A stretch of 64,000 bases of DNA from Streptomyces sp. Tue 6430 (GTDB taxonomy: Bacteria > Actinomycetota > Actinomycetes > Streptomycetales > Streptomycetaceae), in contig JAKGSH010000010.1 in assembly GCA_021568835.1 (NCBI GenBank), positions 2,108,001 through 2,172,000 on the forward strand, written 5' to 3'. Positions 33,526 to 34,940 of the stretch are shown here, one piece after another; position 1 is the stretch's first letter; every line of letters begins with the position of its first letter. The notes beneath the pieces were generated by a model. The model ran no database searches. It had not been told where the DNA came from and saw only the letters and a program-made list of their open reading frames with translations. Both the position numbers and the translations under genes were made by a program.

Positions 33526-33604
33526 GGGTATTCCCCTCCAGAACGTCCGCGCCCCCAGGCGCGGCCCCGGCGCATCGTAGCGACCACACATGTCGGGGCG
33601 GTTC

Positions 33605-33706
33605 AGACCTCCGTGCGATGCAGTTCTGGACAGCTCCACCGCGTCGGAGGTTTTCGCCGTGTTCAAGACCGCCAGTGCCGACAACGCCCGTGATCAACAC
33701 ACCTAG
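33605..33706. repeat. right copy of the inverted repeat flanking the SPFH gene
   Basis: Reverse complement of this stretch matches 32475-32581. Its outer end coincides with the stop codon (33703-33705) of the SMR exporter gene, and its inner end is 80 bp upstream of the SPFH start. The internal palindrome is more degenerate than in the left copy. Confidence 0.75.
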
Positions 33707-34023
33707 TGCCCCGAGGTCGCCTTCAGCCCGACCACGGCGACCAGCAGCAGACACACGAAGAAGATCCGGGCGGCGGTCGCCGGCTCCCCCAGCACCGCCA
33801 TGCCGAACACCGCCGCCCCCGCCGCCCCGATCCCCACCCACACGCCGTACGCGGTCCCGATCGGCAGCGAACGGGCGGCGTACGACAGCAGCAGCATGCT
33901 GGCGACGATCCCCGCACCGGTGAACAGGCTCGGCACCAGCCGCGTGAACCCGTCGGTGTACTTCATCCCGACCGACCAGCCCACCTCCAGCAGACCGGCG
34001 ACGACCAGCAGGACCCAGGCCAT
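33703..34023 (-). CDS. sugE: SMR-family guanidinium exporter (SugE/Gdx-like)
   Basis: 106 residues from ATG 34023, after a GGAGGTG site. Four spans: MAWVLLVVAGLLEVGWSVG with the essential Glu13, LVPSLFTGAGIVASMLLLSYA, PIGTAYGVWVGIGAAGAAVFG and IFFVCLLLVAVVGLK. The GTAYGVWVGIGAAGA motif matches the Gdx/SugE branch rather than EmrE multidrug pumps. Members export guanidinium in exchange for protons as a dual-topology dimer. The 5' leader carries what looks like a guanidine-III riboswitch, which supports the substrate. The C-terminus GLKATSGH is of normal length. Confidence 0.88.
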   Translation of the reverse strand: MAWVLLVVAGLLEVGWSVGMKYTDGFTRLVPSLFTGAGIVASMLLLSYAARSLPIGTAYGVWVGIGAAGAAVFGMAVLGEPATAARIFFVCLLLVAVVGLKATSGH

Positions 34024-34058
34024 GACAGCACCTCCGGGAAACGAGCGCTCGACGACAA

Positions 34059-34112
34059 CGGTGCGTCGTCCTTGCCTTCGTCCACCCCGGTACGGCGCGT
34101 CTCGTCGGGGTC
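34059..34112 (-). promoter_or_regulatory. guanidine-III (ykkC-III) riboswitch candidate
   Basis: The leader RNA contains CCCCG-ACGAG-AC-GCGCCGU-AC-CGGGG, matching from memory the guanidine-III core (P1 stem, ACGAG, then GCGCCGUAC). Downstream GGCAAGGACGACGC could form the pseudoknot with GCGCCGU with one A-C mismatch. It lies 36-89 nt before the exporter ATG, with the ribosome site just downstream, as in other actinobacterial SugE leaders. Ligand binding untested. Confidence 0.65.
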
Positions 34113-34147
34113 CCTCCACGCCAGCAAAGCACACCGAAGCAGACGGA

Positions 34148-34181
34148 AAAAGGGCTGGTGACCATGGTCACCAGCCCTTTT
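34148..34181. terminator. 34-bp perfect palindrome, bidirectional terminator
   Basis: AAAAGGGCTGGTGACCA (34148-34164) is followed directly by its complement TGGTCACCAGCCCTTTT (34165-34181), giving a stem with A/U flanks in both directions. It ends the GroES-like transcript before the riboswitch leader. Confidence 0.9.
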
Positions 34182-34201
34182 CACCCGCTGCTTCACCGCT
34201 G

Positions 34202-34558
34202 TCAGAGATACAGGCCCGTCGAGTCCTCCGACCCCTCGAACCGGTCCGCGGCCACCGCGTGCAGATCACGCTCGCGCATCAGCACGTACGCGACGCCCCG
34301 CACCTCCACCTCGGCCCGGTCCTCCGGGTCGTACAGCACCCGGTCGCCCGGCTCGACGGTCCGCACGTTCTGGCCGACCGCCACGACCTCCGCCCACGCC
34401 AGCCGACGGCCCACGGCCGCCGTCGCCGGGATCAGGATCCCGCCACCGGAACGCCGCTCACCCTCACCGGTCTCCTGGCGCACCAGTACCCGGTCGTGCA
34501 GCATCCGGATGGGGAGCTTGTCGTCGTGGCCGCTGTGCCCGCTTCTGTTACCGCTCAC
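34202..34558 (-). CDS. stand-alone GroES/Cpn10-like protein
   Basis: 118 residues from GTG 34558. Residues 15-110 show the Cpn10 fold: IRMLHDRVLVRQE, SGGGILIPATAAVGRRLAWAEVVAVG, EPGDRVLYDPEDRAEVEV and YVLMRERDLHAV. The mobile-loop region is ERRSGGGILIP, and the usual hydrophobic IVL tripeptide is replaced by GIL. There is no groEL next to it, unlike the groES-groEL1 operon. It may be a second co-chaperonin or a structural homologue with another role. It is followed by a strong terminator. Confidence 0.82.
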   Translation of the reverse strand: MSGNRSGHSGHDDKLPIRMLHDRVLVRQETGEGERRSGGGILIPATAAVGRRLAWAEVVAVGQNVRTVEPGDRVLYDPEDRAEVEVRGVAYVLMRERDLHAVAADRFEGSEDSTGLYL

Positions 34559-34601
34559 GCCACGAACCTACCTGCCTCCGCCCGGCGGCGACGCCTCCGG
34601 G

Positions 34602-34940
34602 TCAGCCCTTGCGGCGCCGGGTACCGAACGTGAGCAGCCCCACGACCCCGATCACCACGAGGGCCACCGGCACCACCCGCTCCAGGCGCGGCGCGCCCTC
34701 CTCGTCCACGAACTGCGCCCGCACATCGCTCACCATCCGGTTGACCTGCACATAGGCCCTCCCGAGGGTGTGATCGACATTGGCCGCGACCTTCGCCTTG
34801 GCATCGCCGACGATGGTCTTCGGGTGCACCCGCACCCCGATCTCGTCGAGCGTCTCGGCCAGCACGTCTCGGCGGCGCCTGATGTCCGCCTCGATCTGCG
34901 CCGGGGTTCTGGTGTCCGACGTGTCCGACGTGTCCGCCAC
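34602..34940 (-). CDS. DUF3618 membrane-associated protein
   Basis: 112 residues from ATG 34940. The start carries the DUF3618 motif RTPAQIEADIRRRRDVLAETLDEIGVR, with a helical HPKTIVGDAKAKVAANV repeat and one C-terminal span (VVPVALVVIGVVGLLTFG) closed by RRRKG. This family is common next to phage-holin-like DUF1269/DUF948 proteins in actinobacteria. The function is unknown, possibly cell-envelope stress. It is co-directional with the GroES-like gene, 43 bp upstream of it. Confidence 0.85.
   Translation of the reverse strand: MADTSDTSDTRTPAQIEADIRRRRDVLAETLDEIGVRVHPKTIVGDAKAKVAANVDHTLGRAYVQVNRMVSDVRAQFVDEEGAPRLERVVPVALVVIGVVGLLTFGTRRRKG

Follow-up and report, generated by a model that had tools for sequence, protein, structure and literature searches.

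The window analysed here, a 64,000-nucleotide stretch of the Streptomyces sp. Tue 6430 genome, carries on its minus strand a sugE (gdx) gene for an SMR-family exporter, and the question raised by this locus is whether the leader of the gene contains a guanidine-III (ykkC-III) riboswitch, as an earlier note made from the sequence letters had suggested, and how such an element would control the exporter. The ykkC-III motif, as described in PMC2864571, precedes emrE and speB genes of Actinobacteria and delta-Proteobacteria. As judged from its sequence, the sugE leader at 34112-34059 of the minus strand is a guanidine-III (RF01763) aptamer, and we consider it highly probable that the sugE (gdx) mRNA begins with a guanidine-III riboswitch, which acts by the translational ON mechanism proposed below. 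Naming the aptamer extends what is already known of its class to a further locus, and the element is an ordinary member of that class.

The SMR exporter that the earlier note had placed downstream of the leader is borne out by the protein sequence, which scores 88.5 bits against PF00893 and 126 bits against the SugE model of NCBI, NF008512, exactly the cut-off of 126 for that model, and the sugE reading frame is intact. The nearest solved structure is 6wk5 (and four further entries). 6WK5 is Gdx-Clo, a guanidinium transporter, and in PMC7695847 the Gdx binding site is described as E13, W62, S42 and W16, of which W16 is conserved in Gdx and is Gly or Ala in Qac proteins. E13, W16, S42 and W62 are all found in the SugE translation from the window and, by these four binding-site residues, the protein is predicted to be a Gdx-type guanidinium exporter.

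Features of the leader are collected in Table 1. Its elements follow the order P1 5′ strand, ACGAG, AC, GCGCCGU, AC, P1 3′ strand, loop, GACGACGC and ACC, so that the CCCCG/CGGGG stem around ACGAG and two further bases noticed earlier is present with all of its named parts and at the position stated in the note. The conserved guanidine-III core (ACGAG, and CGUAC at 34094-34090) is enclosed by P1, with four of four core pairs in all 51 rows of the lineage alignment A1, and the 4-pair CCCG/CGGG core of P1 is kept in 81/81 leaders (80 relatives and the window). The H-type pseudoknot helix P2, bases 12-18 with 35-41, is also present; its downstream strand, for which a pseudoknot with one mismatch had been anticipated, is GACGACGC, which pairs with GCGCCGU at six of seven positions in standard fashion, the sole exception being C.A at 15/38 (34095/34066). 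A perfect P2 is not required by the guanidine-III family, since other aptamer groups likewise form 5 or 6 of the 7 pairs, with pair types that differ between groups. Among the 51 Streptomyces rows there is no covariation in P1 and P2 because both helices hardly vary. The loop of the window leader, from CGGG to ACGACGC, has 15 bases, the commonest value among leaders being 12, and 28 bases separate the end of P2 (34063) from the first base of GGAGG (34035), with the SMR gene downstream. The P1 of the T. fusca aptamer is CCGG/CCGG, whereas the window has CCCG/CGGG, a third strand AC and C15.A38 in place of C15-G38. In other respects the leader resembles the T. fusca guanidine-III RNA as described in PMC5696562: both have P1, ACGAG, CGUAC, a P2 with third strand, a nearby ribosome site and an SMR gene. 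The same paper gives the guanidine-III core as >97% conserved.

Table 1. Positions of the exporter gene, the aptamer and neighbouring elements in the window.
Feature	Position	Strand	Basis or remark
sugE/gdx, SMR-family exporter, 106 aa	33703-34023	minus	PF00893, NF008512, nearest structure 6wk5
sugE start codon	34023-34021	minus	sequence
Shine-Dalgarno GGAGG	34035-34031	minus	sequence
P1	CCCCG 34110-34106 with CGGGG 34089-34085	minus	sequence, 5 pairs
ACGAG core	34105-34101	minus	sequence and relatives
Third strand AC	34100-34099	minus	A34100 = base 10 in T. fusca numbering
P2 5′ strand GCGCCGU	34098-34092	minus	then AC 34091-34090; C34095 = base 15
GCGCCGUAC	34098-34090	minus	sequence
P2 3′ strand GACGACGC	34070-34063	minus	A34066 = base 38, facing C34095; ACC next
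Covariance-model matches, total extent	34059-34134	minus	RF01763 34134-34060; lineage model R1 34109-34059
Competing hairpin GACGACG/UGUCGUC	34070-34064 with 34057-34051	minus	minimum-energy fold of window leader
Probable extended -10 element TGCTGGCGT	34126-34118	minus	relatives: TGNTANNNT
Perfect palindrome AAAAGGGCTGGTGACCATGGTCACCAGCCCTTTT with T run	34181-34148		sequence; terminator-like
Proposed platform	34024-34064	minus	GCACC 34064-34060 with GGUGC 34032-34028
Proposed platform, second part		minus	GAC (34067-34065 or 34070-34068) with GUC 34026-34024, directly before start

With permissive settings, RF01763 matched the leader with 30.3 bits (E 1.2e-4 for 401 bases), short of the Rfam gathering cut-off of 36 bits, which is a reporting threshold and no structural feature. 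The earlier note had recommended this covariance check and had named a score below threshold as one half of what would speak against a guanidine-III RNA; on that half the leader does fall short, with 30.3 bits under 36, and yet it is the best place in the genome. In a search of 8.18 Mb (completeness estimate 85.5%) it ranked first of 22 RF01763 matches at E<=10, with E 6.1e-4, and the second match reached 20.5 bits. A lineage covariance model, for which 51 of the 80 named Streptomyces leaders served as input (unique, loop <=18 bases, window left out), gave the window leader 63.6 bits, with E 5.5e-13 in the window and 7.0e-11 genome-wide, and its second-best match in the genome scored 20.5 bits. 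The 80 retained sugE relatives (the best 80 of 427, from named genomes) are all Streptomyces, with 90-98% protein identity, and ACGAG, two bases, GCGYCGUAC and ACGACGC occur in the leaders of all 80 and of the window. Although the Rfam score below the cut-off could be read as a chance resemblance, the leader is the best of 8.18 Mb by both models and the element stands in the same place in 80/80 retained relatives, so that the probability of this explanation is negligible. The lineage score together with these relatives settles the guanidine-III identity and confirms the candidate before sugE.

At gathering thresholds the only Rfam match of the window was one tRNA, and no guanidine-IV riboswitch was matched. 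Guanidine-IV, as presented in PMC7736828, likewise precedes sugE-type genes, in Actinobacteria as well as in other groups, but has another fold and acts on a transcription terminator. Near the leader, 28 matches to other Rfam families (E 2e-4 to 8, mostly microRNA models) were rejected, all being far below their cut-offs and nearly all lying on the terminator palindrome.

Two features probably account for the sub-threshold Rfam score: an upstream hairpin in the model, which here falls on the probable promoter, and the longer loop. This hairpin, for which the window would have no room, occupies roughly the first 25 positions of the RF01763 model. TGNTANNNT is found 7-13 bases before the P1 CCCG in 77/81 leaders versus 0/242 stretches further upstream, and the mRNA start, as predicted from this promoter-like element, is probably close to P1, which would leave no space for the upstream hairpin. 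With the model hairpin on the probable promoter and a longer loop, the 36-bit threshold is too strict for the lineage of the window. The riboswitch was missed by standard annotation by 6 bits and is now added; we suggest as the reason for the miss that it belongs to a lineage without the Rfam upstream hairpin and with a conserved C.A in the pseudoknot. Four leaders, the window among them, depart from the promoter pattern, the window having a -10 box TGGCGT (34123-34118), with G for A, where its relatives have TANNNT, and this may be a real promoter change or an assembly error. Two other exceptions, L051 and L073, keep TANNNT and lack TGN, which indicates that the -10 element tolerates some change. 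Compared with the 80 Streptomyces sugE leaders as a whole, the window shares the core, the gene, the promoter-like element and the start-region complementarity, and differs from them in the TGGCGT box, in a loop longer than most and in a competing hairpin.

The adjacent terminator of the earlier note exists in so far as there is a perfect palindrome with a T run (Table 1), and similar palindromes are seen by eye at the same place in many relatives; a simple terminator scan listed no site in 33600-34700. The palindrome is upstream of the aptamer and of its probable promoter, and a transcriptional (terminator) platform was rejected because of its position upstream of the aptamer. It looks like the end of the transcript of the GroES-like gene, separating two genes, and no part of the switch. 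This upstream gene (34558-34202) is a divergent GroES-like (Cpn10) gene, with 67.8 bits against PF00166, below all listed NCBIfam GroES cut-offs.

The C.A pair in P2 and the third strand set the window apart from the solved structure. In the T. fusca aptamer, according to PMC5696562, P2 is formed by bases 12-18 with 35-41, and the triples are C16-G37.G9, C15-G38.G10 and G14-C39.U11. The corresponding bases of the window are A at 38 (34066), C at 15 (34095), A at 10 (34100) and C at 11 (34099). Because bases 10, 11 and 38 are thus unlike those of T. fusca, a variant riboswitch sensing another compound through a guanidine-III-like aptamer has to be considered; the core that surrounds the binding site, ACGAG and CGUAC, is kept, however, and the gene is that of a predicted guanidinium exporter by its four binding-site residues, which leaves this explanation highly improbable.

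To place the C.A pair among other aptamers, 275 sources were scanned with a parser that is biased towards well-formed aptamers, as it required ACGAG and CGUAC, a 1-3-base third strand, at least 3/4 P1 pairs and at least 5/7 P2 pairs; it returned 233 of them. C15.A38 was found in 116/233, every one with the third strand AC (116/116), whereas C15-G38 was present in 92/233, none with A at the first third-strand position (0/92). The 16 aptamers with U15-A38 included five with A at this position (four AC, one single A), and none of those with U15-G38 (7/233) or G15-C38 (2/233) had it. Of the 42 sources without a parsed aptamer, seven (L002-L008) are chance matches in the genome that the window belongs to and 35 are others. 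From these 35 a looser pattern recovered three in which A10 and C.A recur with a longer P2 (L142, L151 and L153), five other core or spacing variants (L146, L165, L170, L188 and L223) and one chance match (L127), the remaining 26 giving no match. Among the Streptomyces sugE leaders C15.A38 occurs in 77/80, and L088, L089 and L109 have U-A; U15-A38 also occurs in L017. The AC and C.A form is also found outside Streptomyces, at 13 loci (12 unique leaders) of families f16, f42, f89 and f105, with P1 CCGG/CCGG. A pattern search in which the third strand was left free hit 20 of 396 phylum genomes, versus three for the reversed control pattern; with P1 and GACGACGC as the guide, 16 of the 20 were judged aptamers (11 of the genus, five others) and four were judged chance. 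The third strand begins with AC in 16/16 of those judged aptamers, and the five from outside the genus score above the Rfam cut-off, with 41.3-55.4 bits. In three of these five, L321, L322 and L326, a 9-pair P2 is possible, with the same C.A.

From this distribution, C34095/A34066 is a conserved trait of the lineage and no defect of the window copy. The Rfam alignment leaves C.A unmarked as a bad pair, suggesting that the Rfam seed may already contain C.A sequences. Nearest-neighbour energies for P2 are -5.3 kcal/mol with C.A, -10.4 with U-A and -12.5 with C-G, a cost of about 7 for the C.A pair. In counts taken aptamer by aptamer, the AC and A38 changes go together, as a triple would require. 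We tentatively suggest, as a possibility that falls short of an even chance, that base 38 would be doubly used: A38 would be needed as the strand must also pair with the start region (GAC-GCACC with GGUGC-N-GUC), the G10 to A change would compensate for the lost C15-G38 pair by forming an A10-A38-C15 triple, and the weaker P2 would set the switch point. Such a triple may need a protonated A+.C pair. If double use of base 38 proved true, there would be a structural guanidine-III variant in at least five actinobacterial families. In the literature covered by our searches, which included PMC12186494, PMC7736828, PMC2864571, PMC8492726, PMC5696562 and PMC7695847, we found nothing on a C.A pair in the guanidine-III pseudoknot or on experiments with guanidine-III in Streptomyces. 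Novelty is possible both for the coupling of A10 with A38 and for the particulars of the start-region pairing, though either could already be described elsewhere in print.

The translational control put forward in the earlier note is the best-supported reading, given that the P2 3′ strand is complementary to the region before the start codon, and the sequences suggest a switch of the translational ON type. For this leader we infer guanidine binding, an exchange between two folds, an ON direction and the size of the effect as follows. Guanidinium binding would lock the H-type pseudoknot, with P1 and the P2 triple helix. If guanidine is absent, the P2 3′ strand together with the nucleotides after it (GACGACGCACC, 34070-34060) would pair with GGUGC and GUC, and this pairing, which would extend from the end of the Shine-Dalgarno sequence to the start codon, would hinder translation. 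With guanidine, the P2 3′ strand would be held in the aptamer, the start region would be open and the Gdx-type exporter would be made. In PMC5696562 the T. fusca leader is described as able to form another secondary structure, with binding probably exposing the ribosome site, and according to the review PMC12186494 an action of guanidine-III on translation had been predicted and the RNA also guards mRNA against RNase E. The A10/A38 coupling and the covarying start-region pairing turn what is a general statement in the literature into a mechanism testable by point mutants.

Both complementary segments, GCACC/GGUGC and GAC/GUC, are intact in the window. Across the group of aptamers with third strand AC (120 loci, corresponding to 112 unique leaders because named and other genomes overlap), full pairing of bases 40-44 within the 16 bases that precede the start is seen in 99/112 unique leaders, with 4/5 pairs in 11 and 3/5 in two of the remainder, compared with full pairing in 7.9% of shuffled pre-start stretches; for this count the start codon was re-set by hand at three loci (L070, L213 and L214). 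Five unique leaders, all of family f89, carry a compensatory swap from GCACC/GGUGC to GCUCC/GGAGC. For the swap and GUC tests, 213/233 loci passed the start-site filter. Over 22 groups the own strand on average pairs better than strands swapped between groups (Wilcoxon p 0.008) and better than with shuffled sequence (p 3e-5), the exceptions being five of 22 groups in which own pairing is weaker than swapped and three of 22 in which it is weaker than shuffled; within the AC group, 39% of swapped strands pair equally well or better. GUC stands directly before the start in 91/114 AC-group leaders and 42/99 other leaders versus 8/165 background starts, the background being mechanical ORF starts with a Shine-Dalgarno-like motif from the 80 named loci, drawn from few gene families. 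A pairing of the aptamer CGAGACG with a CGUCUCG-like stretch before the Shine-Dalgarno sequence, seen by eye in some relatives, was dropped as a rule.

When 115 of the 120 AC-group leaders were folded, the P2 3′ strand was expected to form 3 or more pairs with the start region in 89/115, versus 22% of 345 shuffles. A general freeing of the Shine-Dalgarno site was not seen in these leaders, mean unpaired values being 0.30 both in the free fold and with the aptamer blocked, and the site being more open with the aptamer blocked in only 60/115; general Shine-Dalgarno exposure was thus not supported by folding over the 115 leaders. In the window leader, blocking the aptamer bases raises the unpaired value of the Shine-Dalgarno site from 0.16 to 0.50, and in the free fold the start region pairs with the 5′ part of the aptamer (11.15 expected pairs) and hardly with the P2 3′ strand (0.02), which prefers the hairpin with 34057-34051. 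That ribosome-site exposure is not general by folding, and that the mRNA probably starts next to P1, fits an element that would act mainly on mRNA stability, by keeping RNase E from scanning the transcript, with translation affected in second place, as is reported for guanidine-III in PMC12186494, citing Richards and Belasco (2021). This would leave the conserved and compensated start-region pairing unexplained; both effects could hold, and we regard stability as the main target as rather unlikely.

The competing 7-bp hairpin is found in the window leader and is absent from five other leaders folded alongside. As it ties up the P2 3′ strand in the minimum-energy fold, the switch might be guanidine-III by ancestry and yet be impaired or disused in this strain, to which the TGGCGT box, set against the 77/81 leaders fitting TGNTANNNT, and an A-to-G change before GACG (CAAGGACG), found only in the window and L101 among the leaders compared by eye, would also contribute. 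We give such a weakening or disuse a slim chance, since the aptamer core, the Shine-Dalgarno sequence and the platform letters are intact, as is the sugE frame, the lineage score is as high as 63.6 bits and the -10 element tolerates change in L051 and L073.

RF01763 matches are frequent in the samples searched, being found at E<=0.01 in 256/295 genomes of the genus (242/295 above the cut-off), at E<=0.001 in 175/394 genomes of the class and at E<=0.01 in 62/396 genomes of the phylum, so that the element is common and the window copy is one of its low-scoring representatives. Some Streptomyces genomes, for example G074, G187, G188, G227 and G269, have two or three matches, of at least two types: the sugE type with AC and C.A, and a type with GG and C-G before another SMR gene. 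The second type (L009-L014) belongs to the same class and scores 60-69 bits, above the cut-off, but, unlike the window, it has a CCGG P1, a third strand GG, C15-G38 and an upstream hairpin, and its pseudoknot directly adjoins the ribosome site.

Other genes are also found downstream of such aptamers. In family f16, AC and C.A aptamers above the Rfam cut-off directly precede a gene of PF06695 (Sm_multidrug_ex, 'putative small multi-drug export protein') at L321 (G303; 47.5 bits) and L323 (identical to L124, G585; 52.2 bits), and the protein downstream of a further AC and C.A aptamer of this family, L322 (identical to L142, G513), resembles these by look. From this position it is possible that PF06695 is a further guanidine exporter family; a literature search with the PF06695 name and guanidine found nothing. 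At L201 and L221 the guanidine-III aptamer is followed by a short hydrophobic frame (MYDVV...), where the stretch analysed ends, and the 48-residue piece of L201 had no Pfam match. The guanidine-III-like leaders L170, L188 and L146 have ACGAU for ACGAG, a change at base 9 of the strongly conserved core. Finally, a guanidine-III aptamer precedes an arginase-family gene at L119 (PF00491, 256 bits) and, by eye, at L169, L174, L176, L177 and L183, in agreement with the speB association given in PMC2864571.
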